Positions 20,870-63,828 of a stretch of 64,000 nucleotides of DNA are shown here, piece after piece. Source of the stretch: Streptomyces flavofungini (lineage in GTDB: Bacteria; Actinomycetota; Actinomycetes; Streptomycetales; Streptomycetaceae); the NCBI RefSeq assembly GCF_030388665.1, contig NZ_CP128846.1:4662501-4726500 (forward strand), read 5' to 3'. Below the pieces are notes generated by a model. That model saw only the letters and a program-made list of their open reading frames with translations. It was not told the origin of the DNA and ran no database searches. Each line of letters begins with the position of its first letter. Positions within the stretch are counted from its first letter, which is position 1. The position numbers were made by a program, and so were the translations under genes.

Positions 20870-21241
20870 GTGCTGCCTACCGAGCATCGGCTGAGGCGGC
20901 GCGAAGACTTCGCGACCGCGGTACGACGGGGTCGTCGGGCCGGACGCCCGCTTCTCGTCGTCCACCTACGCAGCGGTGCAACGGACCCGCACGTGTCGGG
21001 GGAGAGCCTTCCCCCGACACGTGCGGGTTTCGTCGTGAGCAAGGCCGTGGGTGGAGCCGTCGTCCGCACCGCGGTCAAGCGCAGACTCCGCCATCTCATG
21101 CGCGACCGACTGGCCTCGTTGCCCCCCGGTAGCCTGGTAGTCGTACGAGCGTTGCCCGGCGCGGGCGATGCCGACCATGCACAGCTGGCCCGAGACCTGG
21201 ATGCCGCCCTGGAGCGGCTGCTGGGAGGGGGCGCGCGATGA
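20870..21241 (+). CDS. rnpA: ribonuclease P protein component
   Basis: This 123-residue basic protein helps the RNase P RNA to mature tRNA 5' ends. It starts at GTG 20870 ([21 protein letters not shown]) and has the RNR-type motif as [19 protein letters not shown], followed by VVRALPGAG. Its stop overlaps the yidD start (ATGA). Confidence 0.96.
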
Positions 21242-24284: not shown

Positions 24285-24588
24285 GAGGCGACGATGCTGA
24301 TGCGCCGACCACCGCGCCGTCGCTGATCCGTCCTGACGACGAGCCGTACTCCACAAAAGCTGTCAAACGTACGCATACCGGGGTGTCGCACCAGCGGCAC
24401 CCCGGTCGCCGTGCATCGTGTTTCACGTGAAACGTCGCTCACTGCTGCATGGCATCATCAGCCGCGGCCGCGCTGCGGAACCCCGCGAACGTCGGCCGCT
24501 TGGTTCCCTCGACAAGGGCACGGAGTTGTCCACAGAGGGGGATTCGTCCACAGAAGACCGGGCCTCGCTGGTTCACGACCCCGAAAGC
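24285..24588 (+). other. rsmG-parA gap with a parS site and the parAB leader
   Basis: This 304-bp gap has no gene; the open frame upstream of parA here is read as leader. It carries parS at 24420-24433 and, 100 bp later, a box-like TTGTCCACA at 24526-24534. The parAB promoter must lie here, but no clear -35/-10 was picked. Confidence 0.5.
24420..24433. other. parS: parS site 1
   Basis: Perfect GTTTCACGTGAAAC, the ParB-binding palindrome, about 170 bp upstream of the parA start chosen here. ParB loads at such sites and spreads to build the segregation complex. Confidence 0.97.
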
Positions 24589-25665
24589 ATGGGAGGCTCT
24601 GTTCATTGCGAGCCTGAAGTCGAGGAGAGTGAATCCTTGCGGTCCGACGCCAACATCGCGGGACCGATGACCGATCCGGTCCCCGGTCCCCGTACCGAGT
24701 CGGCGGGGGAGGATGTTTCACGTGAAACACCGAGCCCGATGGACGACACCCCCATTGGTCGTGCCGCCCAGCTGGCGGTGGAAGCCCTGGGCCGTGCAGG
24801 CGAGGGCCTGCCGCGACCGGATCAGACCCGAGTCATGGTGGTCGCCAACCAGAAGGGCGGGGTAGGCAAGACGACGACAACCGTCAACCTTGCCGCTTCG
24901 CTCGCTCTGCACGGCGCGCGCGTGCTGGTGATCGACCTCGATCCACAGGGCAATGCGTCCACGGCTCTCGGTGTCGACCACCACGCCGAAGTCCCCTCCA
25001 TCTACGACGTGTTGGTCGAGAGCAAGCCTCTCTCCGAGATCGTCCAGCCGGTCCCTGATGTCGAGGGCCTCTTCTGCGCCCCGGCGACCATCGATCTCGC
25101 GGGTGCGGAGATCGAGCTGGTGTCCCTGGTGGCACGGGAGAGCCGTTTGCAGCGAGCGATCCAGGCCTACGAGCAGCCGTTGGATTACATCCTCATCGAC
25201 TGCCCGCCGTCGCTGGGGTTGTTGACGGTCAACGCTCTGGTGGCCGGTGCGGAGGTACTGATCCCGATCCAGTGCGAGTACTACGCACTGGAGGGCCTGG
25301 GGCAGCTCCTGCGCAACGTCGACCTGGTGCGCGGGCACCTCAACCCGCTGCTGCATGTGTCGACGATCCTGCTCACCATGTACGACGGCCGGACCCGACT
25401 GGCCTCGCAGGTGGCGGACGAGGTGCGCAACCACTTCGGCGACGAGGTGCTACGCACGAGCATCCCGCGCTCCGTGCGTATCTCCGAGGCGCCCAGCTAC
25501 GGCCAGACCGTGCTGACTTATGATCCGGGCTCCAGTGGTGCCCTGTCGTACTTCGAGGCAGCGCGCGAGATCGCCCTGCGCGGAGTCGGCGTGCGCTACG
25601 ACGTGCAGCACGCCCATGTGGGCAACCAGAACGAACAGCAGAACATGACGGAGGGGATGCAGTGA
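24589..25665 (+). CDS. parA: chromosome partitioning ATPase ParA
   Basis: This 358-residue protein is a Walker-type ATPase that moves ParB-bound origins, in Streptomyces mainly during sporulation. ATG 24589 (MGGSVHCEPEVEES) gives the length remembered for S. coelicolor ParA (about 357); the earlier frame start at 24418 lies on parS 1. The first 80 residues are a flexible extension. The ATPase core shows NQKGGVGKTTTTVNLAASLA (deviant Walker A, about 88-107), IDLDPQGNASTALG and YILIDCPPSLGLLTVNAL. Codons 43-47 (VSRET) are parS site 2. Its stop overlaps parB. Confidence 0.95.
   Translation: MGGSVHCEPEVEESESLRSDANIAGPMTDPVPGPRTESAGEDVSRETPSPMDDTPIGRAAQLAVEALGRAGEGLPRPDQTRVMVVANQKGGVGKTTTTVNLAASLALHGARVLVIDLDPQGNASTALGVDHHAEVPSIYDVLVESKPLSEIVQPVPDVEGLFCAPATIDLAGAEIELVSLVARESRLQRAIQAYEQPLDYILIDCPPSLGLLTVNALVAGAEVLIPIQCEYYALEGLGQLLRNVDLVRGHLNPLLHVSTILLTMYDGRTRLASQVADEVRNHFGDEVLRTSIPRSVRISEAPSYGQTVLTYDPGSSGALSYFEAAREIALRGVGVRYDVQHAHVGNQNEQQNMTEGMQ
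24715..24728. other. parS: parS site 2, inside parA
   Basis: Perfect GTTTCACGTGAAAC lying in frame in the parA N-terminal extension, where it encodes Val-Ser-Arg-Glu-Thr. Confidence 0.97.
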
Positions 25666-26780
25666 GCGAGCGACGGAGAGGGCTGGGCCGTGGTCTCGGC
25701 GCTCTGATCCCTGCGGCTCCTACGGAGAAGTCGGCACCCCCGGCCGCGGGTGGAGGTTCCACCTCGCCCTCGTCCGTGCCGGTGCTCACGGCTGAACGAG
25801 GCGTGGCGGCCGCCAAGGTGGCCTCGCTTCCGCAGCACCCGGTTTCCCAGGAACCGGACGAGCCCACGAACGGCACCGTGACCGAGGAGCCGATGCGCCC
25901 GGCCGGAGCGCACTTCGCGGAGCTTCCCCTTGACTCCATCAAGCCCAACCCGCGGCAGCCGCGTGAGGTGTTCGACGAGGACGCCCTCGCGGAGCTCGTG
26001 ACCTCCATCAAGGAAGTCGGTCTCCTCCAGCCCGTCGTCGTACGGCAGTTGGGCCCCGCGCGCTACGAGCTCATCATGGGTGAGCGGCGCTGGCGAGCTT
26101 GCCGTGAGGCGGGTCTGGAGCGCATCCCGGCGATCGTCCGGGCAACGGAGGACGACAAGCTCCTCCTGGACGCGCTCCTGGAGAACCTGCACCGCGCCCA
26201 GCTGAACCCGCTGGAAGAGGCTGCGGCCTACGACCAGCTACTCAAGGACTTCAACTGCACGCACGACCAGCTGGCCGACCGGATCGGGCGGTCGCGTCCG
26301 CAGGTCTCCAACACGCTGCGACTGCTCAAGCTCTCGGCGACCGTGCAGCGCCGGGTCGCCGCCGGTGTCCTCTCCGCGGGCCATGCGCGGGCACTGCTCG
26401 CTGTGGAGGACCCGGAGGAGCAGGACCGACTCGCACACCGCATCGTGGCCGAGGGGCTCTCGGTGCGTGCAGTGGAGGAGATCGTGACCCTGATGGGGTC
26501 GCGGCCGCAGAGCAAGCCCAAGGCGAAGGGCCCCCGCGCCGGCGGAATCGTCTCCCCTGCCCTGACCGGCCTGGCCTCACGCCTCTCCGACCGGTTCGAG
26601 ACCCGGGTGCGCGTCGATCTGGGCCAGAAGAAGGGCAAGATCGTCGTCGACTTCGCCTCTCTGGAAGACCTGGAGCGGATCCTCGCCACGCTCGCCCCGG
26701 AAGAGGGCCCGGTGCTCAGGAACGGACTCGCCGAGGCAGAAGCCGAGGCCGGGAAAACCTCGGAGGACGAGCGGGGCTGA
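25662..26780 (+). CDS. parB: chromosome partitioning protein ParB
   Basis: This 372-residue protein binds parS and is a CTP-dependent clamp. GTG 25662 overlaps the parA stop (GTGA). It starts [17 protein letters not shown], the ParA-contacting N-terminus. The ParB/Srx domain reads LPLDSIKPNPRQPREVFDEDALAELVTSIKEVGLLQPVVVR and YELIMGERRWRACREAGL (CTP-binding GERRxRA). The HTH region follows (LADRIGRSRPQVSNTLRLLKL), and the C-terminal dimer domain ends VDFASLEDLERILATL. Confidence 0.97.
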   Translation: MSERRRGLGRGLGALIPAAPTEKSAPPAAGGGSTSPSSVPVLTAERGVAAAKVASLPQHPVSQEPDEPTNGTVTEEPMRPAGAHFAELPLDSIKPNPRQPREVFDEDALAELVTSIKEVGLLQPVVVRQLGPARYELIMGERRWRACREAGLERIPAIVRATEDDKLLLDALLENLHRAQLNPLEEAAAYDQLLKDFNCTHDQLADRIGRSRPQVSNTLRLLKLSATVQRRVAAGVLSAGHARALLAVEDPEEQDRLAHRIVAEGLSVRAVEEIVTLMGSRPQSKPKAKGPRAGGIVSPALTGLASRLSDRFETRVRVDLGQKKGKIVVDFASLEDLERILATLAPEEGPVLRNGLAEAEAEAGKTSEDERG

Positions 26781-27736: not shown

Positions 27737-27780
27737 TCCGAATGCGCGCGCTGGGGGCTTCAGGGCGGGCGACATACGGC

Positions 27781-27812
27781 GAAGGGGCCAACCTCGTGAG
27801 GTTGGCCCCTTC
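27781..27812. terminator. bidirectional terminator between the acetyltransferase and trxA
   Basis: GAAGGGGCCAACCTC (27781-27795) pairs with GAGGTTGGCCCCTTC (27798-27812). The perfect 15-bp stem serves both converging genes. parS site 3 begins 2 bp later. Confidence 0.85.
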
Positions 27813-27814
27813 GT

Positions 27815-27828
27815 GTTTCACGTGAAAC
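27815..27828. other. parS: parS site 3
   Basis: Perfect GTTTCACGTGAAAC in the convergent gap before trxA, directly beside the terminator stem. Confidence 0.97.
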
Positions 27829-35864: not shown

Positions 35865-38381
35865 TCAACGGTCCACTCTCTCACCCGTGTGCGAAGGCTC
35901 GGTGCTTTCCACAGCGGTGTCCGGTGTCGGGTCACTCGGCTGCTCGGGATCGGCCGAACCGGGGTCGGTGCCGGGAGAGGTGTCGGGGGCGGCGTCGGAA
36001 TCACCGTCGGGGCCGCCGTCCGGGCCTGCCTCCGCCTGCCGCCGCGCCGCGCGCTTGCGCTGGGTGTACATGCGGAATCCGGCGAGGACGAGGAGCAGCA
36101 CACCGCCGCCGATGACCAGCATCACCGTCGCGGTGAACTCGGTGACGTTGACGTCGAAGCGGACGGGCTCGCCGTAGGGCTCGTTGTCCTCGGTGTACAG
36201 CTGGGCGTAGACCGTGACCGGGCCGTTGGCGTTGGCGGTGGTGGTGAACTTCACGGACTGGGTGTGGCCGCCGCCCGTGATCCTGACGGGCTGCTCCTCG
36301 TAGAGTCCGTCGCCGACCTTCAGGCGGGTGGGGTTGGTCGACGTCAGGCGCAGCACGAGGTGGTCGACGCCCTGCACCAGGTTGTTCTGCACCGTGACCG
36401 GGATGGTCGCGCTGCGGCCCGACAGCTTCACGTCGGACTTGTTGATCAGCTTCACCTGCTGGATGAGGCTCGTCAGATATCCCTGCACGCCCTTGCGGAA
36501 GTTCTGGGCGTCGGTCGGGCGGCCGCGCCACGACGTGGACATCTCACGGTCCATCGCCCGCCCGAAGGGGGTGATGACGCGGTCCGGCTCGGAGAGGATC
36601 TGCTTGAAGCGGTCGAGCTTGCCCTGGGTGTTCTGGACCTCCTCGAACGCGGAGCGGGGCAGCTCCTGCTTGCGCAGCGTCGACGGGTAGGACCGGGCCG
36701 AGGGGACCTGGGTGGTGGCGTCCGGGTCCGGCTCGGCCTTCGCGGCCGCCGTCAGGGACTGCGGCTGCGACCAGCGCTTGTCGTCGAGGGCGGCGAGCGC
36801 CCGCGCCATGGTCTGGGCCTGGCTGGCCGAGGGCATGCGCTGCGGGGCGACCACGATGCTTCGCTGCTTGTCCGGATCCTGCAGGGTGATCATGAGACTT
36901 TGGGCCAGGAACTCCTGGGTGGCGAGGGTGGAGTCCTCGGCCCTCGTCATGTCGCCGCGGAAGGCGGTCGAGAGGCGCGCGTCGGCGACCACGGCGGTCG
37001 TCCCGCCGCCGATGGGCCGCGCGGCGCTCGGGGTGTACAGCAGCCCGCCCGTCTCCCGCAGACTGTCGCTGCGGGCGATCACCGAGTGGGCACCCGCCGA
37101 GGTGGCGACATCCACGACCGACGGGTCGACAGCGCCCTCGGCGGGCCAGGCGAAGTCCGAGGTCGGCTTGACGTTGAGGATGTCCTCCACGGCCTGGGCG
37201 CCGACCTCGGTGGCTTCCTTGAGGTGGCCGAGCGAGCCCTTGACGGCCCTGCCGTTGTGGGCGAGCGAGGCGAGATCGGGGTCGGCGAAGGGCAGCGCGA
37301 CGACCTTCTTGCCCTTGACGGCCTTGTGGAGCTGGTTGAGCCACTGCTTCGCGAGGGCCTGGTGCTTGCCGGCGACGGTCGTGCCGTCCGGTCCCTCGAC
37401 GTCATAGCTCGTCGTCATCGCGTCGACGGAGACCAGCAGGTCCGGGTCGATGACCCAGGCGACGTCGAGCTGGCTGCCGAGCGTCAGGAGCTGCTGCAGC
37501 CGCCCGCCGGTCTGGAGCTCCTTGGCCAGGCTCTCGTCCTTGAAGAGCGGCGTCTGCTCCTCGTCGGAGCGTGTCCTCGACGTGAGGTGCGTGGTGGACA
37601 TGAGCGGCCACAGGTACGTCGTCTTGGTCTTCGTGTCGGCTGCCCCGTCCTGCCACGGCAGGAAGGTCCGCTCGATGCCGAGCACCTGCGGGTAGGGCTG
37701 CGCGGCGGTCTGGCCGGTCAGCGTCACGCCGAGCTGGTAGACGCCGTCCATGCCGAGGTGCAGGGCGCTCACAGGCACGGAGATGCTGAAGTCGTACGGG
37801 ACGCCCGGGGCGAGCCGGGAGAACTTCTCGACGTACTTCCCGCCGACCTCGGAGCCGTCGAGCCCCGGCTGGTACGTGGTGCGCTTCGCGGCGCTGTCGA
37901 TGTCCGTGCGGCCGCCCAGGGCGCTGCCCACACGGAGGCCCACGTGGGCGTCGGTGATCGCCTGGCGTCCCTCGTTGGTGATCTTTCCGGAGACCACGAC
38001 GGTGTCACCCTTGCGCGGCGCGCTGGGCGTGAGGGAGTCCAGGGAGACGTCGACGGTACGGGAGCCGGTGGGGGCGGTCTTCGTGCCCGTGGCGGCCTTG
38101 CGCGCGCTCGCGGCGACACCCGTGGTACTCGACGTGCCCGCCGACCCGGTCGCGGTGTTTGCCCTCACGTCCGTTCCGGCAGCGTGCGCGGAGGGGCTCA
38201 CGGGCACCTGGAGCAGCCCGGCCAGCAGTGGTGCCCCGGCCAGCAGTGTCGCTGCCCGCCGGAACCACCGGCGGGCAGGTGAGGGGCTGGTCCCCGGGAA
38301 ATCTGCCGCCTCGGCCACGCGTTGCCCGTCCCTCGTCGTCGTCAGCTGTGTCGGTGGTTGTCGTTCGCTGCGTCCACGCAT
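35865..38381 (-). CDS. DUF6049 family secreted/membrane-anchored protein
   Basis: This 838-residue protein probably starts at ATG 38381 (MRGRSERQPPTQ); GTG 38318 (VAEAADFPG), which has GAGGGACGGG upstream, is a serious alternative. A signal sequence (RRWFRRAATLLAGAPLLAGLLQVPVSPSAHA) leads to beta-rich outer domains, including VDVSLDSLTPSAPRKGDTVVVSGKITNEG (an NEW3/CARDB-like fold). The C-terminus has a transmembrane helix (TVMLVIGGGVLLLVLAGFRM) and an acidic Pro/Ser tail. It lies 47 bp before murJ and is conserved there in actinobacteria. The function is unknown but is likely linked to envelope growth. Confidence 0.82.
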   Translation of the reverse strand: MRGRSERQPPTQLTTTRDGQRVAEAADFPGTSPSPARRWFRRAATLLAGAPLLAGLLQVPVSPSAHAAGTDVRANTATGSAGTSSTTGVAASARKAATGTKTAPTGSRTVDVSLDSLTPSAPRKGDTVVVSGKITNEGRQAITDAHVGLRVGSALGGRTDIDSAAKRTTYQPGLDGSEVGGKYVEKFSRLAPGVPYDFSISVPVSALHLGMDGVYQLGVTLTGQTAAQPYPQVLGIERTFLPWQDGAADTKTKTTYLWPLMSTTHLTSRTRSDEEQTPLFKDESLAKELQTGGRLQQLLTLGSQLDVAWVIDPDLLVSVDAMTTSYDVEGPDGTTVAGKHQALAKQWLNQLHKAVKGKKVVALPFADPDLASLAHNGRAVKGSLGHLKEATEVGAQAVEDILNVKPTSDFAWPAEGAVDPSVVDVATSAGAHSVIARSDSLRETGGLLYTPSAARPIGGGTTAVVADARLSTAFRGDMTRAEDSTLATQEFLAQSLMITLQDPDKQRSIVVAPQRMPSASQAQTMARALAALDDKRWSQPQSLTAAAKAEPDPDATTQVPSARSYPSTLRKQELPRSAFEEVQNTQGKLDRFKQILSEPDRVITPFGRAMDREMSTSWRGRPTDAQNFRKGVQGYLTSLIQQVKLINKSDVKLSGRSATIPVTVQNNLVQGVDHLVLRLTSTNPTRLKVGDGLYEEQPVRITGGGHTQSVKFTTTANANGPVTVYAQLYTEDNEPYGEPVRFDVNVTEFTATVMLVIGGGVLLLVLAGFRMYTQRKRAARRQAEAGPDGGPDGDSDAAPDTSPGTDPGSADPEQPSDPTPDTAVESTEPSHTGERVDR

Positions 38382-38545
38382 GGTAACGAGGTGCGCCGGG
38401 GCTAAGTGCCGCGGACTGGACCACAAGATCGGAAGAGCTGGCGGCGATGTCCACAAGGCCGGTGGTGAGCGCCGTGCGCGGCCCTGACGAGGCCCGTGGA
38501 AATCAAGGCGGCCCCGGGCGCCCGGGCCACGTACCCTTTTCTGTT

Positions 38546-40015
38546 GTGCCGAACGCCAACGAAGACAATCCCCGTGCCCTGAGCCAGGCGCAGGACCGCG
38601 CCGTGAGCGAGCTGCTGCGCGTCTCCCCCGTCGCGGACGACCTCGCCCGCCGTTTCCAGGAGGCCGGGTTCTCGCTCGCCCTGGTGGGCGGCTCGGTCCG
38701 GGACGCGCTCCTGGGCCGGCTCGGCAACGATCTGGACTTCACGACGGACGCCCGCCCCGAGGACGTGCTGAAGATCGTCCGGCCATGGGCCGACGCGGTC
38801 TGGGAGGTCGGAATCGCCTTCGGGACGGTGGGCTGCCAGAAGGACGCCCGCGTGGACGGCGCCGAGCAGCGCTTCCAGGTCGAAGTGACGACATATCGAT
38901 CGGAGGCGTACGACCGGACCTCGCGCAAGCCCGAGGTGTCGTACGGCGACTCCATCGAGGAGGACCTCATCCGACGTGACTTCACCGTGAACGCGATGGC
39001 CGTCGCGCTCCCGGAGAAGACGTTCATCGACCCGCACGGCGGCCTCGGCGACCTGGCCGAGCGCGTCCTGCGGACCCCCGGCACCCCCGAGGACTCCTTC
39101 TCGGACGACCCGCTGCGGATGATGCGGGCCGCGCGCTTCGCCGCGCAGCTGGACTTCGAGGTGGCCCCCGAGGTCGTCGTGGCGATGAAGGCGATGGCCG
39201 GGCGTATCGAGATCGTCTCCGCCGAGCGGGTCCGGGACGAGCTGAACAAGCTCATCCTGTCCGCGCACCCGGCCAAGGGCCTCGCCCTGCTCGTGGACAC
39301 CGGACTCGCCGATTACGTCCTGCCGGAGCTTCCCGCCCTGCGCCTCGAGCGTGACGAGCACCACCGGCACAAGGACGTCTACGACCACACGCTGATCGTC
39401 CTTGAACAGGCGATGGCGCTGGAGACCGAGGGCCCGGACCTGACGCTGCGGCTCGCCGCGCTGCTGCACGACATCGGCAAGCCGAAGACGCGCCGCTTCG
39501 AGTCGGACGGGCGGGTCTCGTTCCACCACCACGAGGTGGTCGGGGCGAAGATGACCAAGAAGCGCATGACCGCCCTGAAGTACTCGAATGAGCTCATCAA
39601 GGACGTCTCGCGGCTCGTGGAGCTGCACCTGCGCTTCCACGGCTACGGCGAGGGTGAGTGGACGGACTCCGCGGTCCGCCGCTACGTCCGCGACGCGGGC
39701 CCGCTCCTCACCCGCCTGCACAAGCTAACCCGATCCGACTGCACCACCCGCAACAAGCGCAAGGCCAACGCCCTGTCGCGCGCGTACGACGGCCTGGAGG
39801 AGCGCATCGCCCGCCTCCAGGAGCAGGAGGAGCTGGACTCCATCCGCCCCGACCTCGACGGCAACGAGATCATGGAGATCCTGGGCGTCCGCCCGGGCCC
39901 GGCCGTCGGCCAGGCGTACAAGTTCCTGCTGGAGCTGCGCCTGGAGAACGGGCCGATGGAGCGGGGCGCGGCGGTGGCGGCGCTCAAGGAGTGGTGGGCC
40001 GCGCAGGAGCAGTAG
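38546..40015 (+). CDS. cca: CCA tRNA nucleotidyltransferase
   Basis: This 489-residue protein adds or repairs the tRNA 3' CCA end. GTG 38546 (VPNANEDNPRALSQAQ) fits homologues. There is no purine site upstream and TACCCT lies 9 bp before it, so the message may be leaderless. The nucleotidyltransferase head reads LVGGSVRDALLGRLGNDLDFTTDA (GGxVRD and DxD), and RRDFTVNAMA follows. The C-terminal HD domain reads LAALLHDIGKPKTR and FHHHEVVGAKM. It is divergent from DUF6049 and converges with the LppU-like gene. Confidence 0.95.
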   Translation: MPNANEDNPRALSQAQDRAVSELLRVSPVADDLARRFQEAGFSLALVGGSVRDALLGRLGNDLDFTTDARPEDVLKIVRPWADAVWEVGIAFGTVGCQKDARVDGAEQRFQVEVTTYRSEAYDRTSRKPEVSYGDSIEEDLIRRDFTVNAMAVALPEKTFIDPHGGLGDLAERVLRTPGTPEDSFSDDPLRMMRAARFAAQLDFEVAPEVVVAMKAMAGRIEIVSAERVRDELNKLILSAHPAKGLALLVDTGLADYVLPELPALRLERDEHHRHKDVYDHTLIVLEQAMALETEGPDLTLRLAALLHDIGKPKTRRFESDGRVSFHHHEVVGAKMTKKRMTALKYSNELIKDVSRLVELHLRFHGYGEGEWTDSAVRRYVRDAGPLLTRLHKLTRSDCTTRNKRKANALSRAYDGLEERIARLQEQEELDSIRPDLDGNEIMEILGVRPGPAVGQAYKFLLELRLENGPMERGAAVAALKEWWAAQEQ

Positions 40016-40026
40016 GGCCGGGCATG

Positions 40027-40068
40027 CGAGAGGGCGCTGTGTTTCACGTGAAACACAGCGCCCTCTCG
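40027..40068. terminator. 42-bp perfect palindrome with parS at its centre
   Basis: The arms run 40027-40047 and 40048-40068 without a mismatch. The core 14 bp (40041-40054) is parS; the outer parts (CGAGAGGGCGCTGT and complement) are a G+C-rich stem as in Streptomyces terminators. It lies 12 bp after cca in a convergent gap, so it should stop transcription as well as bind ParB. Confidence 0.7.
40041..40054. other. parS: parS site 5
   Basis: Perfect GTTTCACGTGAAAC at the centre of a 42-bp palindrome; 47 bp centre to centre from parS site 6. Confidence 0.97.
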
Positions 40069-40072
40069 ATGT

Positions 40073-40116
40073 GCGCGGAGAGGCGATGTTTCACGTGAAA
40101 CATCGCCTCTCCGCGC
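40073..40116. terminator. 44-bp perfect palindrome with parS at its centre
   Basis: Arms 40073-40094 and 40095-40116 match completely, with GCGCGGAGAGGCGAT before the core parS and its complement after it. It lies 12 bp beyond the stop of the minus-strand LppU-like gene and faces the 42-bp palindrome on the cca side. Confidence 0.7.
40088..40101. other. parS: parS site 6
   Basis: Perfect GTTTCACGTGAAAC at the centre of a 44-bp palindrome. Confidence 0.97.
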
Positions 40117-40128
40117 GCGCAGGCTTGC

Positions 40129-40652
40129 TTACTTCTTCAGCTTCGACAGGCAGAGGGTGAAGTCGTCACCACGACCGCTCTCCCGGTACGTGGCGTACTT
40201 CGTGATGTCGCAGGTCCCGCTGTCCTTCTTCTCCGCGACCTTGTACGCGGCCTTGCTGTCGCCGCAGTCCACGATCTTCAAGTCCGGGTCGGTGGAGCTC
40301 GTCGGGTTGCCGACGCTCATGCAGTCGCCAACCTCGGCTGCGGCTGCCTCGTCCTTCCCGGCCAGGACCACGCCACCCGCGATGAGGGCGACGACGGCGA
40401 CGCCCACGATGGAGAATTTGAGCTTCTTCTTGCTCTTGCGCGGGGCCTGCGGGTCCGGACCACCCTGGTAGAACGGCACGCTCGGCTGCTGCGGAGCGCC
40501 TGGCTGTGAGGGGTACGGAGTGCCGGGAGCCTGGCCGTAAGGGGCGCCCTCACCCTGAGGCTGGCCGTACGGCGCACCACCTTGCGGCGGCTGGCTGTAG
40601 GGCTGCTGGCCCTGGGCGAACGGGTTCTGGCCCTGGGCGGCGGAGTGGACAC
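40129..40652 (-). pseudogene. LppU/SCO3897-family membrane protein, apparent frameshift near the start
   Basis: The C-terminal 116 residues (open from GTG 40479) contain a transmembrane helix (KFSIVGVAVVALIAGGVVLAGK) and an outer domain with cysteines (VGDCMSVGN, IVDCGDSKAAYKV, GTCDITKYATYRE, FTLCLSKLKK), as in the LppU/SCO3897 family. Upstream, the same frame reads a typical Gln/Pro/Gly-rich head (QGQNPFAQGQQPYSQPPQGG) but has no start before a TAG. GTG 40652, with AGGGGG before it, begins MSTPPP in another frame; one missing C in the run at about 40635-40637 would join both. Either a real lesion or a sequencing error; GTG 40479 could give a shorter product. Confidence 0.7.
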
Positions 40653-40767
40653 GGGGATCCCCCTATGAAAGAGCGCAAGGCGTGTGGCTGGGATGCGCGA
40701 CGGCGCGAAATGACCCCGTTACCGAGATCCCGAGCGTGGATTGAAGCCCAGCGGGCCTCTGTGACAC

Positions 40768-42024
40768 TTACTGGTCGTCAAAACTGGCCATAGCCACAGC
40801 AATCGCCGAGTAAATCACGGCCACCGTGACAACCAAGAGGGTCGATTTTCCGTCCGGGGGCAGCATCAGGGCGGCCACGCCTGCCGCGCCGACGAAGGAG
40901 ATGTTGAAGAGGACGTCGTAGAGGGAGAAGATCCGGCCTCGGAAACCGTCGTCCACAGCGGCCTGGACGACCGTGTCCGTGGCGATCTTCGCGCCCTGGG
41001 TGGTCAGCCCCAGGACGAAGGCGGCGACGAACATCGGAACCGGGGCGAAGGCCAGGCCGAGCGCGGGCTCCAGGACGGCCGCAGCGGCGGCGCAGAGCAC
41101 CAGCCAGCCGCGCGGCCCGAACCGGCCCGCGGCCCACGGCGTCACCAGGGCCGCCGCGAAGAACCCCGCACCGGAGATCCCCACGGCGACCCCGAGCAGC
41201 GCGAGCCCTTCGTCCTCCGTCGACCCCCACGCGTACCGGCACAGCATCAGCACCATGACCGTGAGCGCGCCGAAGCAGAACCGCATCAGCGTCATCGACA
41301 CCAGAGCGTGCGCGGCAGGACGGCGCTCGGCGAGATGGCGTACGCCTGCGAGAAGACCGCGTGCGGTGCCGGCGAGCGCCGTGCGCAGGTGCGGCTGCAC
41401 CAACTCCGGATCGGGACCGAGGAGTTCGCGGGAGATCCGCAGGGAGGCGAGCGCGGCGCACAGATAGAGCGCGGCGCCCAGAAGGACCACGGCCGCGTCC
41501 GAGTCCGCGGCCACGATGCGTACCGCGAAGGCGAGACCGCCGCCCGCGGTGGCCGCGAGCGTGCCGGCGGTCGGGGAGAGGGAGTTGGCCATGACCAGCC
41601 GGTCGGCGTCCACCACGCGTGGCAGCGCCGCCGAGAGCCCGGCCAGGACGAAGCGGTTGACGGCCGTGACGCAGAGGGCGGAGGCGTAGAACAGCCAGTC
41701 CGGGGTGTCACTGAGGATCAGTACGGCGGTGACGCAAGCGAGGGCGGCGCGCAGCAGATTGCCGTACAGCAGGACCTGGCGTCGTCGCCAGCGGTCGAGC
41801 AGGACGCCCGCGAACGGGCCGACGAGGGAGTACGGCAGGAGGAGCACCGCCATCGCGGAGGCGATCGCCGCGGCGGAGGTCTCCTTCTCCGGCGAGAAGA
41901 CCACGTACGCGGCGAGCGCGACCTGGAAGACGCCGTCCGCGCCCTGGGAGACGAGCCGCACGGCCAGCAGACGGCGGAAATCCCGCAGCCGCAGGAGAAC
42001 GCGCAGGTCACCGACGACAGCCAT
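40768..42024 (-). CDS. MFS transporter
   Basis: This 418-residue protein starts at ATG 42024 (MAVVGDLRVLLRLRDFRRLLAVRLVSQGADGVFQVALAAYV). About 12 hydrophobic helices are seen. The loop after helix 2 reads LLDRWRRRQVLLYGNLLRA, close to the MFS D-R-x-x-R-R motif. It ends AIAVAMASFDDQ. Similarity is to macrolide-efflux or enterobactin-exporter-like MFS proteins; the substrate is unknown. It lies between the LppU-like gene and ino1 on the same strand. Confidence 0.88.
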   Translation of the reverse strand: MAVVGDLRVLLRLRDFRRLLAVRLVSQGADGVFQVALAAYVVFSPEKETSAAAIASAMAVLLLPYSLVGPFAGVLLDRWRRRQVLLYGNLLRAALACVTAVLILSDTPDWLFYASALCVTAVNRFVLAGLSAALPRVVDADRLVMANSLSPTAGTLAATAGGGLAFAVRIVAADSDAAVVLLGAALYLCAALASLRISRELLGPDPELVQPHLRTALAGTARGLLAGVRHLAERRPAAHALVSMTLMRFCFGALTVMVLMLCRYAWGSTEDEGLALLGVAVGISGAGFFAAALVTPWAAGRFGPRGWLVLCAAAAAVLEPALGLAFAPVPMFVAAFVLGLTTQGAKIATDTVVQAAVDDGFRGRIFSLYDVLFNISFVGAAGVAALMLPPDGKSTLLVVTVAVIYSAIAVAMASFDDQ

Positions 42025-48905: not shown

Positions 48906-48948
48906 AGCCGAAGGGCCGGTACGCGGGATGCGTACCGGCCCTTCGGCT
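48906..48948. terminator. bidirectional terminator between GT87 and the racemase-like gene
   Basis: Arms AGCCGAAGGGCCGGTACGC (48906-48924) and complement (48930-48948) form a 19-bp perfect stem with a 5-base loop in the convergent gap. Confidence 0.88.
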
Positions 48949-53755: not shown

Positions 53756-53786
53756 AAGGGGCCGCACCTACGGGTGCGGCCCCTTT
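53756..53786. terminator. terminator after rplI
   Basis: AAGGGGCCGCACC (53756-53768) pairs with GGTGCGGCCCCTT (53773-53785), followed by T and parS sites 9 and 10 in the convergent gap. Confidence 0.85.
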
Positions 53787-53791
53787 GCCGT

Positions 53792-53805
53792 GTTCCACGT
53801 GAAAC
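53792..53805. other. parS: parS site 9 (one-base variant)
   Basis: GTTCCACGTGAAAC differs from the consensus at one base. The flanks extend the palindrome to 24 bp (53787-53810) with that single mismatch. It lies 22 bp centre to centre from site 10. Confidence 0.85.
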
Positions 53806-53813
53806 ACGGCGTA

Positions 53814-53827
53814 GTTTCACGTGAAAC
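53814..53827. other. parS: parS site 10
   Basis: Perfect GTTTCACGTGAAAC, two helical turns from the variant site 9. Confidence 0.97.
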
Positions 53828-59785: not shown

Positions 59786-59857
59786 ATGTCTTGCCAGGTC
59801 AGGCGGCGGTGTTGGAAATGACTCGACGTGCGCCAACCGCACGTATGGACTGGCTCC

Positions 59858-61231
59858 ATGACTCATGAAGAGCTCCTTCCGAGCACCCGCCGGTCTCTGA
59901 TCCATCGCATCGCCACCGCTCAGGCGGAGGGGCGGGCCCCTTCGCTGGTCGCCGCGATCGCCCGGAACGGTGAGTTGGTGTGGACCGGGGCCCGCACCTC
60001 GGTGGCGAGCCACGCACCGGACGAGAACGTTCAGTACCGCATCGGATCGATCACCAAGACGTTCACCGCTGTCCTCGTGATGCGGCTGCGTGACGAGGGC
60101 GTGCTCGACCTCTCTGACCCGTTGGAGAAGCATCTGCCGGGCACCGGGGCGGGCGAGGTGACGATCGCGGAACTGCTCGCACACACAGGTGGGTTGGGAG
60201 CTGAGACACCGGGTGTCTGGTGGGAGCGCAGTTCGGCCTCGCTGCGCCCCGAGCTGAGTGACGTGCTCGGCGAACAGCCCTTCAAACATCCCGTCGGGCG
60301 TCGTCATCACTACTCCAACCCCGGCTACACGCTGCTCGGTTCGCTGGTGGAGGCGTTGCGTGGTGAGCCGTGGGAGGACGTCCTGCGGCGAGAGGTTTTG
60401 GAGCCGCTCGGCCTGACCCGTACTAGCGGCCACCCCCAGGCACCCCACGCCGATGGCTGGGCCGTACACCCGTGGGCGGACGTGCTGCTGCCCGAACCCA
60501 CCGAGGACCTGGGGCTGATGGCACCGGCCGGACAGCTGTGGTCCACCACTGCCGACCTCGCGCGGTTCGGCGTCTTCCTGATGCAGGGCGACGACCGGGT
60601 GCTCGGTGCGGATTCCGTCCGCGAGATGAGGACGCCGGCGGCGCCCGCGGAGACCGGGAACTGGGAGCGGACGTACGGCCTTGGCGTGGATCTGGTCGGC
60701 GGAAAGGGATACACGCTGGCCGGTCACTCGGGTTCGCTTCCCGGGTTCATCGCGTCGCTGTGGACGAGTGAGAAGGACGGGCTGGCGGCGGTGGTCCTTG
60801 CCAACTGCACCTCCGGGCCGCCGGTGGCCCTCGTGGCTGCGGAACTCCTGCAGATCGTGGCGGAGGCCGAGCCGCGCATTCCCGAGCCGTGGCAGCCGCT
60901 GCCGGAGGTCGATCCGGCGGTCCTTGAGCTGGCCGGGCCCTGGTATTGGGGGACCAACGCGTCCGTGCTGCGCCTCGCGGCCGACGGCGCGGTCGAGGTG
61001 GGGCCGCTGTCGGGTGTGGGGCGTGCGTCCCGGTTCCGGCCCAACGGGGACGGTACGTGGACGGGGCTCGACGGCTACTTCGCGGGTGAGCGGCTTGAGG
61101 CTGTGCGGCGGGCGGACGGCTCGGTGAGCCATCTCGACCTCGCGTCGTTCGTCTTCACGCGCGAGCCGTACGAGGCGGGGGCGCCGGTGCCGGGCGGGGT
61201 GGACCCGGAGGGGTGGCGCGGCCTCGCGTAA
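59858..61231 (+). CDS. serine hydrolase, beta-lactamase class C fold
   Basis: This 457-residue protein starts at ATG 59858 (MTHEELLPSTRRSLIHRIATAQAEG). The S-x-x-K motif is in GSITKTFTAVLVMRL, the Y-x-N motif in HHYSNPGYTLLGSLVEAL, and AGHSGSLPGFIASLW is in the place of the K-T/S-G box. No signal peptide is visible, so it is probably a cytoplasmic esterase or peptidase rather than a secreted beta-lactamase. The C-terminal 130 residues form an extra beta domain. Confidence 0.88.
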   Translation: MTHEELLPSTRRSLIHRIATAQAEGRAPSLVAAIARNGELVWTGARTSVASHAPDENVQYRIGSITKTFTAVLVMRLRDEGVLDLSDPLEKHLPGTGAGEVTIAELLAHTGGLGAETPGVWWERSSASLRPELSDVLGEQPFKHPVGRRHHYSNPGYTLLGSLVEALRGEPWEDVLRREVLEPLGLTRTSGHPQAPHADGWAVHPWADVLLPEPTEDLGLMAPAGQLWSTTADLARFGVFLMQGDDRVLGADSVREMRTPAAPAETGNWERTYGLGVDLVGGKGYTLAGHSGSLPGFIASLWTSEKDGLAAVVLANCTSGPPVALVAAELLQIVAEAEPRIPEPWQPLPEVDPAVLELAGPWYWGTNASVLRLAADGAVEVGPLSGVGRASRFRPNGDGTWTGLDGYFAGERLEAVRRADGSVSHLDLASFVFTREPYEAGAPVPGGVDPEGWRGLA

Positions 61232-61312: not shown

Positions 61313-61356
61313 CGTCGGGGTTGTCCTGTTTCACGTGAAACAGGACAACCCCGACG
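61313..61356. terminator. 44-bp perfect palindrome with parS at its centre
   Basis: Arms 61313-61334 and 61335-61356 match without error (outer part CGTCGGGGTTGTCCT and complement around parS). It lies in the convergent gap between the serine hydrolase and the acetyltransferase, so it is probably both a two-way terminator and a ParB site. Confidence 0.72.
61328..61341. other. parS: parS site 12
   Basis: Perfect GTTTCACGTGAAAC at the centre of the 44-bp palindrome. Confidence 0.97.
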
Positions 61357-61395: not shown

Positions 61396-61848
61396 TTAGA
61401 GCTGAAGCTTGAAGCCCACGTGCGAGGCCGTGAAGCCCAGACGCTCGTAGAAGCGGTGCGCGTCGGTGCGCTTGGCGTCCGAGGTCAGCTGCACCAGCTG
61501 GCAGCCCTGCCGCCGGGACTCGTCCACGGCCCACTCGATGAAGCGGGTGCCGAGCCCGCTGCCCCGCTCGTTGGCGTGCACGCGGACCGCCTCGATGATC
61601 GAGCGGACCGCGCCCTTGCGGGAGAGGCCCGGCACGATGGTGAGCTGCAGCGTGCCCACCACGCGGTCTTCGCGCACGGCGACGACCAGGTTCTGGTTCG
61701 GATCCTCGGCGAGACGCTCGAACGCCGCCAGATACGGCGTGAGGTCGTCCGGGGACTCGCGCTGGGCACCCAAGGGGTCGTCGGCGAGCATCGCCACGAT
61801 CGCGGGGATGTCATCGGGCACGGCGGGTCGTATCTCAAGATCTCCCAT
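61396..61848 (-). CDS. GNAT-family acetyltransferase
   Basis: This 150-residue protein starts at ATG 61848 (MGDLEIRPAVPDDIPAIVAMLADDPLGAQRE). The acetyl-CoA loop reads VRVHANERGSGLGTRFIEWAVDESRRQGC, and DAHRFYERLGFTASHVGFKLQL closes the fold. The substrate is not known. It lies 72 bp after the marR gene on the same strand. Confidence 0.92.
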   Translation of the reverse strand: MGDLEIRPAVPDDIPAIVAMLADDPLGAQRESPDDLTPYLAAFERLAEDPNQNLVVAVREDRVVGTLQLTIVPGLSRKGAVRSIIEAVRVHANERGSGLGTRFIEWAVDESRRQGCQLVQLTSDAKRTDAHRFYERLGFTASHVGFKLQL

Positions 61849-61920
61849 TGCCGCAGCCTATGCGGGCGCCGATCGGGCGGGCGGAGCCAGGGGGTGCGCG
61901 GGCCAGGAACAGGGCCTGGC

Positions 61921-62379
61921 CTAGGCAGGTGCGCGGACCGCCTCGACCGCCTGGACCAGCGGCGCCAGCTCGGGGTTCTTGGCGGCCTCGTCCAGGGCCT
62001 CGCGCAGCGCCGCGTCATTGGTGGGGCGGGCCTCCCTGAGGAGCGCGGCCCCGCTCTCGCTGACGTCGGTGTAGATGCCGCGCCGGTCGGTGGGGCACAG
62101 GTAGCGCGAGAGGAGTCCGCGCTCTTCCAGGCGGGTGACCAGGCGTGTGGTGGCGCTCTGGCTGAGGACGACGGCGTCGGCGACCTGCTTCATCTGCAGA
62201 TGGCCGCCCTCGCCGTCGTGCTGGCGGTTCAGGACGTCGAGCAGGCTGTACTCCCGCACGCTCAGGCCGTGCTTGGCCTGCAAGGCCCGCTCGACATGGG
62301 CCTCGATCTTGCCGTGGAGCAGGGAGAGAGCGCACCAGCCCTGGGCGAGGGCGGTGAGTGCGGGGTCTGTCGCTGTCAT
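61921..62379 (-). CDS. MarR-family transcriptional regulator
   Basis: This 152-residue protein starts at ATG 62379 (MTATDPALTALAQGWCALSLLHGKIEAHVERALQAKHGLSVREYSLLDVL), with GGAGGAAC upstream. The winged HTH reads MKQVADAVVLSQSATTRLVTRLEERGLLSRYLCPTDRRGIYTDVSESGAALL, including the D-R-R wing. It is divergent from the MFS exporter, a standard MarR layout, and probably represses it. Confidence 0.93.
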   Translation of the reverse strand: MTATDPALTALAQGWCALSLLHGKIEAHVERALQAKHGLSVREYSLLDVLNRQHDGEGGHLQMKQVADAVVLSQSATTRLVTRLEERGLLSRYLCPTDRRGIYTDVSESGAALLREARPTNDAALREALDEAAKNPELAPLVQAVEAVRAPA

Positions 62380-62540
62380 GACTGTTCCTCCGTCTTCCTG
62401 CGCTTCCTGCGTCCTGGACGCCTTCCTGCGGCTCGGACGGGCCTCGTGGTGCAGCTGCTCTCCCATGCCGGCCCGTGCCCGGCCGCGCCCGCGTCCTTGA
62501 GCGGTTGCGTCCAGGATAGTCCACCGCTGCAATATCCAGC

Positions 62541-62600
62541 GCTTGCAAGTAACCCGCGTATGCAACTATTGTGTACGCACGTTAAGCGCACTTGCAACCG
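62541..62600. promoter_or_regulatory. MarR-MFS control region
   Basis: TTGCAA (62543-62548) and TATTGT (62567-62572) with an 18-bp spacer look like the MFS promoter. TTGCA (62543-62547) and TGCAA (62561-62565) form an inverted repeat over it, and TTGCAA recurs at 62592-62597. These are candidate MarR operators. Confidence 0.5.
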
Positions 62601-62616
62601 TCTGGAAGGTAGTTCC

Positions 62617-63828
62617 ATGCCTCTCGCGCTTCTGGCCCTCGCGATCGGGGCCTTCGGAATCGGCACCACGGAGTTCGTGATCATGGGATTGCTGCCCGAG
62701 GTCGCAGGTGACTTCGACGTCTCCATCCCGACCGCCGGTCTGCTCGTCACCGGATACGCCCTCGGTGTCGTCGCCGGAGCCCCGCTCATGACCGTCCTCG
62801 GCCAGCGGATCTCCCGCAAACGAATGCTGATGCTCCTGATGGGCCTCTTCATCGCGGGCAATCTGCTCTCCGCCATCGCCCCCAGCTTCGGCGTGATGCT
62901 CGCGGGCCGTGTCGTCGCCTCGCTCGCCCACGGTGCCTTCTTCGGGATCGGTTCGGTCGTCGCGGCCGAGCTCGTCGCTCCGGAGAAGAAGGCGGGTGCG
63001 ATCGCCATGATGTTCACGGGTCTGACCGTGGCCAACGTGGTCGGTGTGCCGCTCGGCACGTTCGTCGGCCAGGTCGTCGGCTGGCGCGTCACCTTCGTCA
63101 TCGTCGCCGCCCTCGGCGTCCTCGGCCTCGCCGGTATCGCCAAGCTCGTGCCGGACCTGCCCAAGCCCGAGGGTGTACGGCTCCGCGACGAGGTGGGCGC
63201 CTTCCGCAACGTACAGGTGCTCCTCGCCATGGCGATGACCGTCCTCGGCTTCGGCGGCGTCTTCGCGGCCATCACCTACATCACGCCGATGATGACGGAC
63301 GTCGCGGGATACGCGGACTCCTCCGTGACCTGGCTCCTGGTCCTCTTCGGCCTCGGCATGGTCGGCGGCAACCTGATCGGCGGCAAGTTCGCCGACCGCG
63401 CGCTGATGCCGATGCTGTACATCTCGCTCGGCGCCCTCGCCGTCGTGCTCGCCCTGTTCACGGTCACCGCGCACAACAAGGTCGCCGCAGCCGTCTCCGT
63501 CGCGCTGATCGGTGCCCTCGGCTTCGCCACCGTGCCGCCGCTGCAGAAGCGGGTCCTCGACCAGGCCGCCGCCGCGCCGACGCTCGCCTCCGCCGCCAAC
63601 ATCGGCGCCTTCAACCTCGGCAACGCCCTCGCGGCCTGGCTCGGCGGCTTCGTGATCTCCGCAGGCTTCGGCTACACGGCCCCGAACTGGGTGGGCGCCG
63701 CACTCGCCGCCTCCGCCCTCGGCCTGGCCGTCCTCTCAGCCGTCCTGGAGCGCCGGTCCACCTCCCCCGGCAAGGTCGTCGCCGGCGCTGTCCCCCTGAC
63801 CGAGGCCCCGACGCCCGTCCACCACTGA
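62617..63828 (+). CDS. MFS exporter (DHA1/AraJ type)
   Basis: This 403-residue protein starts at ATG 62617 (MPLALLALAIGAFGIGTTEFVIMGLLPEVAGDFDVSIPTAGLLVTGYALGVVAGAPLMTVLGQRISRKRMLMLLMG). Twelve helices are visible; GTTEFVIMGLLP is the mark of the AraJ/chloramphenicol-resistance-like group. It ends in a short polar tail. It probably exports drugs or sugars under MarR control. Confidence 0.93.
   Translation: MPLALLALAIGAFGIGTTEFVIMGLLPEVAGDFDVSIPTAGLLVTGYALGVVAGAPLMTVLGQRISRKRMLMLLMGLFIAGNLLSAIAPSFGVMLAGRVVASLAHGAFFGIGSVVAAELVAPEKKAGAIAMMFTGLTVANVVGVPLGTFVGQVVGWRVTFVIVAALGVLGLAGIAKLVPDLPKPEGVRLRDEVGAFRNVQVLLAMAMTVLGFGGVFAAITYITPMMTDVAGYADSSVTWLLVLFGLGMVGGNLIGGKFADRALMPMLYISLGALAVVLALFTVTAHNKVAAAVSVALIGALGFATVPPLQKRVLDQAAAAPTLASAANIGAFNLGNALAAWLGGFVISAGFGYTAPNWVGAALAASALGLAVLSAVLERRSTSPGKVVAGAVPLTEAPTPVHH

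Follow-up and report, generated by a model that had tools for sequence, protein, structure and literature searches.

Introduction

The closest described precedent for a DNA signal that also serves gene-end transcription comes from Neisseria, where, in the available text of PMC2397512, closely spaced inverted DNA uptake sequences (DUS) act as rho-independent terminators. In that arrangement two motifs supply the two arms of the hairpin, and the partner is the uptake system. A second point of comparison is the ordinary intrinsic terminator of Streptomyces itself: according to the accessible portions of a Term-seq study (PMC12207403), terminators of this genus are the longest and most stable and are U-poor, with T runs being rare, loops have a median length of 4 in every species studied, canonical intrinsic criteria are met by only 4-6.6% of Streptomyces RNA ends, and a prominent part may fall to Rho-dependent termination or to processing. 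A third is the Streptomyces partition complex, in which almost all ParB ChIP-seq peaks of S. venezuelae correspond to parS (PMC4852455).

Here we analyzed a 64,000-nucleotide stretch of the Streptomyces flavofungini chromosome (contig NZ_CP128846.1; hereafter the window) in which the parS core GTTTCACGTGAAAC occurs exactly at the center of three long perfect palindromes, clustered with the cognate parAB. Our comparative analysis suggests that, at two conserved gene ends, parS is probably the apex of a U-poor hairpin terminator, and that the same DNA would thus be put to dual use. These sites resemble the partition complex in their exact core and in belonging to a 14-site cluster around parA/parB, and they resemble the long U-poor intrinsic terminators of Streptomyces, as far as these are described in the available text of PMC12207403, in having long and stable stems, loops of 4 nt, a weak U tract and covariation, but differ from ordinary terminators of the genus in that the apex is invariant and is parS. 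As with the Neisseria DUS terminators, a short DNA motif recognized by a protein is also a component of a terminator, and in this sense the kind has a precedent (PMC2397512, in the text available). Unlike DUS, however, parS is a single palindromic motif that forms the tip of the hairpin and is flanked by arms that vary and covary, and the partner is the chromosome partition protein instead of an uptake system. What is apparently new, within the literature searched, is the geometry, in which the tip of a covarying hairpin never varies and is itself a palindromic site for a protein, and the involvement of a chromosomal centromere site as the partner. A search of titles and abstract openings, with the original S. 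coelicolor parS paper outside its scope, found no report of parS inside terminators. The words terminator and hairpin are absent from the available text of PMC4852455, PMC12511625, PMC12207404 and PMC7022226; in that of PMC8743542, terminator occurs 0 times and hairpin 7 times, with no hairpins at parS in its parS section; and the term parS is absent from the main text of PMC12207403 as available.

Three parS-centered palindromes in the window

The genome contains 14 exact parS cores, located between 4552838 and 4751377 of the 9.1-Mb contig, mid-chromosome around parA/parB (Table 1). In the window, cca (closest named match in S. alboflavus, 97% identity) and an LppU/SCO3897-family gene, whose product had no match in a Pfam search, converge on an intergenic gap of 113 bp (40016-40128, between gene ends at 40015 and 40129) that is mostly made up of two palindromes. 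The first-pass annotation had described two parS sites exactly centering perfect palindromes of 42 bp and 44 bp in this convergent gap, and its coordinates were confirmed; it had also placed the palindromes 11-12 bp from stop codons, and we measured 11 and 12 bp. Its further observation that the arms outside the core differ, and hence are no copied block, was borne out by a by-eye count, with 7/14 identical over the first 14 positions outside the core. The 14 or 15 extra matched pairs per site would arise by chance with probabilities of 4e-8 or 1e-8 (assuming a GC content of 0.71). In RNA folding, both strands give hairpins closed by 4-nt loops (z = -14.05 and -13.13), and the folded hairpins, including that of a third palindrome that the first-pass annotation did not contain (61313-61356), agree with the reported Streptomyces terminator style of a long stem and a 4-nt loop.

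We define a parS core as embedded if at least 8 of the 9 positions beyond the core are paired. By this definition, 3/14 exact cores of the genome are embedded, all within the window, while none of the other 11 exact cores or of the 4 one-mismatch cores is; those coming closest are the core at 53792-53805, with 7/9 positions paired, and one core outside the window, with 6/9. The three parS palindromes are the three longest of 12 inverted repeats in the window (arms of at least 11 bp, spacer of at most 8 nt) and the only spacer-free ones; the nine others lack parS and have spacers of 1-8 nt. Other strong, perfect short-loop hairpins without parS were seen at 2593-2629 and 20985-21028 (18- and 19-bp arms). 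Separately, the longest parA frame opens with a GTG that takes in the initial base of a parS core (24418-24433); because this frame reads through that core and another one at 24715, parA probably begins further in.

Table 1 Features of the window, in window coordinates
Feature	Coordinates	Strand	Remarks
parA	24418..25665	+	AAA_31 3.1e-58; true start uncertain
parB, presumed cognate binding protein	25662..26780	+	HTH_ParB 1.4e-35, ParB_N 4.7e-35; 13 kb from the cca/LppU gap
Hairpin, GNAT/trxA convergent gap	27780..27813		Ordinary, 16-bp arms; abuts non-embedded parS 27815-27828; contrast case
cca, CCA tRNA nucleotidyltransferase	38447..40015	+	TIGR02692, 809 bits vs. cutoff 438.8
Palindrome 1	40027..40068		42-bp perfect; proposed terminator hairpin, first met from cca; from inverted-repeat list and RNA fold
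parS core GTTTCACGTGAAAC, center of palindrome 1	40041..40054		Exact core
Palindrome 2	40073..40116		44-bp perfect; proposed terminator hairpin, first met from LppU-like gene; from inverted-repeat list and RNA fold
parS core GTTTCACGTGAAAC, center of palindrome 2	40088..40101		Exact core
LppU/SCO3897 family protein gene	40129..40479	-	NF049863, 60.7 bits vs. cutoff 25
Hairpin, convergent gap without parS	48906..48948		Ordinary, 19-bp arms, 5-nt loop
Hairpin, rplI/MATE convergent gap	53756..53785		Ordinary, 13-bp arms; beside parS-like 53792-53805 (one mismatch) and 53814-53827
Serine hydrolase gene, upstream of third palindrome	59828..61231	+	PF00144 beta-lactamase superfamily and DUF7586
Third parS-centered palindrome	61313..61356		44-bp perfect, same design; starts 82 bp past end of upstream gene
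parS core, center of third palindrome	61328..61341		Exact core
MFS transporter gene, downstream of third palindrome	61420..63828	+	Same strand as serine-hydrolase gene

Conservation of the two gene-end positions across Streptomyces

For the cca position, we used 121 genomes drawn evenly from the genus (121 distinct gaps from 127 loci, with 6 same-genome repeats dropped) together with 80 named Streptomyces records, for a combined set of 194 gaps (13 dropped); in relatives, the gap is taken as the 260 nt past the cca match, or 190 nt for the census of hairpin types. An exact parS is present within 260 nt past cca in 121/121 genus genomes. Two or more parS are found in 104/121 and at least one embedded parS in 95/121, where embedding by chance is expected at about 4e-4 per site (GC 0.71). 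At least two embedded parS occur in 37 of the 104, and the tandem of two embedded parS at cca is not the rule across the genus. One seeming exception, L106, was discarded, being an assembly stretch of N next to an intact parS palindrome.

For the hydrolase position, we surveyed 102 regions 3' of the serine-hydrolase gene, from 95 of the 117 gene-bearing genomes in one draw plus 7 other genus members; the 22 genomes left out were the 21 lowest-scoring and one more, and the sample leans to closer relatives. parS with at most one mismatch was found in 88/102 of these regions, and 48/89 exact cores are embedded. In this survey the exact cores begin a median of 23 nt past the stop, compared with 82 bp for the palindrome in the window.

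Arm pairing is maintained by compensatory changes

Across relatives the arms are diverse: the number of different 10-nt left arms is 110 at cca site 1, 71 at cca site 2 and 83 at the hydrolase site. Over positions 9-16, the paired fraction is 0.70 and 0.85 at cca sites 1 and 2 and 0.69 at the hydrolase site, vs. 0.24-0.39 with the partner slid by 1-3 positions (these hydrolase-site figures are based on 105 entries in which two-core regions are counted more than once, the clean count being 89 exact cores). At the cca sites, paired fractions over positions 8-21 are 0.707 and 0.734, vs. maxima of 0.501 and 0.603 when partners are shuffled (107 distinct gaps from 110 loci after 3 identical ones were dropped, 106 of them with an exact core), and at the hydrolase site the fraction over positions 8-16 is 0.744, vs. 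at most 0.454 after shuffling partners among genomes.

We additionally compared 85 disjoint nearest-neighbor pairs of two-core gaps at cca, considering positions paired in the first member of each pair. At site 1, double changes number 143, vs. 64.4 expected under independence, and 113 of them keep a Watson-Crick pair; at site 2, the same pairs give 102 double changes, vs. 27.4 expected, with 90 keeping a Watson-Crick pair. The arm double changes at cca are compensatory changes, and stem pairing kept by compensatory change, a trait of terminators, is present at both the cca and the hydrolase sites. The comparison across relatives that the first-pass annotation had proposed thus reveals arm pairing conserved beyond the core with strong covariation (143 vs. 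64.4 and 102 vs. 27.4); since the arms change in a compensatory manner, the lack of conserved pairing that it had named as evidence against its reading was not observed.

A G-T mismatch still pairs in plus-strand RNA. In otherwise paired arms, G-T vs. A-C mismatches number 28 vs. 25 at cca site 1 and 18 vs. 12 at site 2, where convergent reading blunts the test, and at the hydrolase locus, which is read in one direction, 10 vs. 10 in the arms and 13 vs. 10 including the core, from few events. Wobble asymmetry was therefore neutral at all three sites as a test of RNA- vs. DNA-level selection, and with the two mismatch types about equal nothing shows selection on RNA rather than DNA. Such a lack of asymmetry is expected if selection sees DNA, that is, if the palindrome serves ParB (as an extended site, through cruciform extrusion, or by holding two dimers in symmetric order) and termination is incidental. 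The spacer-free form of the parS palindromes in the window points the same way, as do the distances between core centers, which are most often 41-47 bp (in 52 of the two-core gaps of the draw), though they range from 24 to 106. The arms, however, have no common sequence, and together with the distribution of embedded sites described below this leads us to regard a purely DNA-level role as distinctly improbable. A candidate link between parS arms and ordinary hairpins through purine content was also rejected, with no match between the arms (0.71) and ordinary hairpins (0.59; other parS flanks, 0.56).

Embedding is nearly restricted to two gene ends

To place the embedded sites among other parS of the same genomes, we considered the 40 kb around cca in 21 genomes (20 single-contig genomes plus the window). 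Embedded parS account for 22/42 in the cca gap and 7/11 in the hydrolase gap, vs. 5/157 elsewhere (Fisher 2e-13 and 4e-7). At other gene ends, embedding was found for 0/20 parS at GNAT/trxA and 1/24 at rplI/MATE. Embedding is nearly restricted to two gene-end positions and is not general to all gene ends. A class-wide survey (30 listed loci of the 59 class genomes with a match, out of 79 searched) gave the same picture, with 57 parS in these 30 loci and no palindrome longer than 26 bp.

Because arms are rare at other parS, both near cca and class-wide, ParB seemingly does not require them; armless sites in the same genomes, and in all 57 sampled class-wide, are difficult to reconcile with a palindrome whose arms exist to serve ParB. 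The rarity of arms also bears on a mutational origin, in which a parS palindrome would seed fold-back or template switching, one arm would be copied onto the other, and the symmetry would reflect mutation. Such correction would be expected to produce perfect symmetry and changes made in concert on the two sides, and template-switch correction may indeed help to keep the arms perfect, but the same seed rarely gives arms at other parS loci, and a mutational by-product would leave the missing separate hairpin of the cca gap (see below) unexplained. We consider it very unlikely that mutation alone accounts for these sites.

parS-centered hairpins stand where other gaps have ordinary hairpins

Next, we compared hairpin types between convergent gaps. 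In the window, the hairpins of other convergent gaps (27780-27813, 48906-48948 and 53756-53785) are ordinary and perfect. In the GNAT/trxA gap, parS is present in 18/21 genomes, with 0 parS-centered hairpins and a separate hairpin in 19/21, and in the rplI/MATE gap parS is present in 15/19, with 2 parS-centered hairpins and a separate hairpin in 18/19. A parS-less convergent gap past a GT87 gene has a hairpin in 14/19, and a dnaB convergent gap, judged in 1 genome, has none. The LppU-like neighbor was recognized beside cca in just 10/21 genomes, 9 of which were usable for this comparison; in these 9, with both genes close, the parS-centered hairpin is present in 8/9 and a separate hairpin in 0/9. 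Separate hairpins are thus found in 37/40 cases at the two other parS-bearing convergent gaps vs. 0/9 at cca/LppU (p = 1e-7). The hydrolase/MFS gap has a parS-centered hairpin in 8/10 and 1 separate hairpin. At GNAT/trxA, parS usually lies directly beside a separate hairpin of terminator-like form, or overlaps it by a little, without being its apex, the hairpin edge lying at most 9 bp from the parS center in 14/16 measured cases.

In the wider set, a parS-centered hairpin of at least 11 pairs is present in 104/121 cca gaps and a separate hairpin in 7/121; the 17/121 gaps without a parS-centered hairpin comprise 4 with another parS-containing hairpin, 1 with another hairpin and 12 with no strong hairpin. 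We also considered complementarity within Streptomyces, in which a separate hairpin would replace a missing parS-centered one, and rejected it as not significant: over 194 Streptomyces gaps, a separate hairpin is found in 2/20 of those lacking the parS-centered one and in 8/174 of the others (p = 0.28).

Outside the genus, 30 genomes from 16 other genera of the family provided 17 cca gaps without exact parS, of which 11/17 have a hairpin. Nine of these 11 hairpins are ordinary (six starting at most 35 nt from the end of the cca match and the others at 51, 61 and 107 nt), and 2 (L231 and L236) are apparently built on imperfect parS cores. Among the 13 other-genus cca gaps with parS, parS is the apex of a hairpin in 6, lies within a larger hairpin in 3, lies beside a separate hairpin in 1, and has no hairpin in 3. 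An ordinary separate hairpin therefore accompanies 9/17 gaps without exact parS vs. 1/13 with parS (p = 0.017, with the grouping made post hoc).

Embedded parS accordingly take the place that ordinary hairpins occupy in other convergent gaps and in roughly half of the cca gaps of other genera that lack an exact parS, which argues for the terminator reading. That embedded sites occupy the places of looped hairpins also weighs against arms selected for ParB at the DNA level. The dual use put forward in the first-pass annotation consequently gains support from covarying arms, restriction to two gene ends and hairpin substitution, with termination being what we infer from them.

Terminator traits and a proposed mechanism

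A stable stem-loop soon after the stop codon is present at both ends of the cca/LppU gap, where the palindromes fold at the distances given above. No terminator-like site with a T run was found in 38000-42000, so the canonical T-run trait is lacking there, and at the hydrolase hairpin the T fraction is 0.21 after and 0.15 before. Such U-poor tails, together with the possible prominence of Rho-dependent termination or processing in Streptomyces noted in the available text of PMC12207403, would suit hairpins that act as mRNA 3'-end stabilizers or mark Rho-trimmed ends in place of intrinsic terminators. Although these roles are inseparable here from intrinsic termination, they would still make the site a dual-use hairpin at the RNA level, and we give them hardly any credence as the whole explanation. 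At a relaxed Rfam threshold, 17 sub-cutoff matches were obtained, 15 of them to miRNA families, and these were set aside as chance hairpin matches. Collectively, a terminator role at the cca/LppU gap is strongly indicated by the comparative evidence, and from the exact core we infer ParB binding at the same place.

In the mechanism we propose, the central 14-16 bp would serve ParB loading in double-stranded DNA, while in RNA from either strand the self-complementary core and the arms would form a long hairpin that is U-poor and capped by the 4-nt loop ACGU, the covarying arms typically extending about 9-12 bp beyond the core and sometimes more. ParB recognition would hold the core and the need for pairing would hold the arms, leaving arm sequence free to change, but in step. 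Being palindromic, each unit would act in both directions, and in the cca/LppU tandem each converging polymerase would meet one hairpin soon after the stop, with the second as a backstop.

A functional coupling can also be imagined, in which the terminator stops converging polymerases from running over the site where ParB loads and clamps of ParB, once loaded at this apex, form a roadblock that sharpens termination; we regard this as a tentative and rather unlikely extension. If true, partition-complex assembly and gene-end transcription would be interdependent at dedicated loading stations conserved genus-wide. Even dual use by itself, if correct, would make a centromere-like site a terminator as well, tying segregation and gene-end transcription together in one sequence, and could explain the fixation of these parS at two gene ends across the genus. 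The sites would then offer a natural test case for the limits that transcription sets on the loading and sliding of ParB, and would carry a warning for segregation studies, as deleting these parS may remove terminators too. Taken with the DUS precedent, they suggest that further motifs serving as DNA signals may be housed in a similar manner.

Variant cores and layouts

The two-motif layout of DUS was not found at the three palindromes of the window, each of which has one core, at the apex. A DUS-like layout does occur in other genera, in L229 and L233, where, within the first 85 nt past the cca match, two parS lie in opposite arms of one hairpin (21- and 25-bp arms). Past cca in L231, a symmetric double-variant core, GTTCCACGTGGAAC, centers a 32-bp palindrome and is followed by a second symmetric variant core. 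The 102 regions surveyed at the hydrolase locus hold five one-mismatch cores, all of which read GTTTCACGTGGAAC on the mRNA strand, a change that leaves a U-G wobble in the RNA; this recurrence possibly reflects shared ancestry, and three of the five GTTTCACGTGGAAC cores sit in paired arms.
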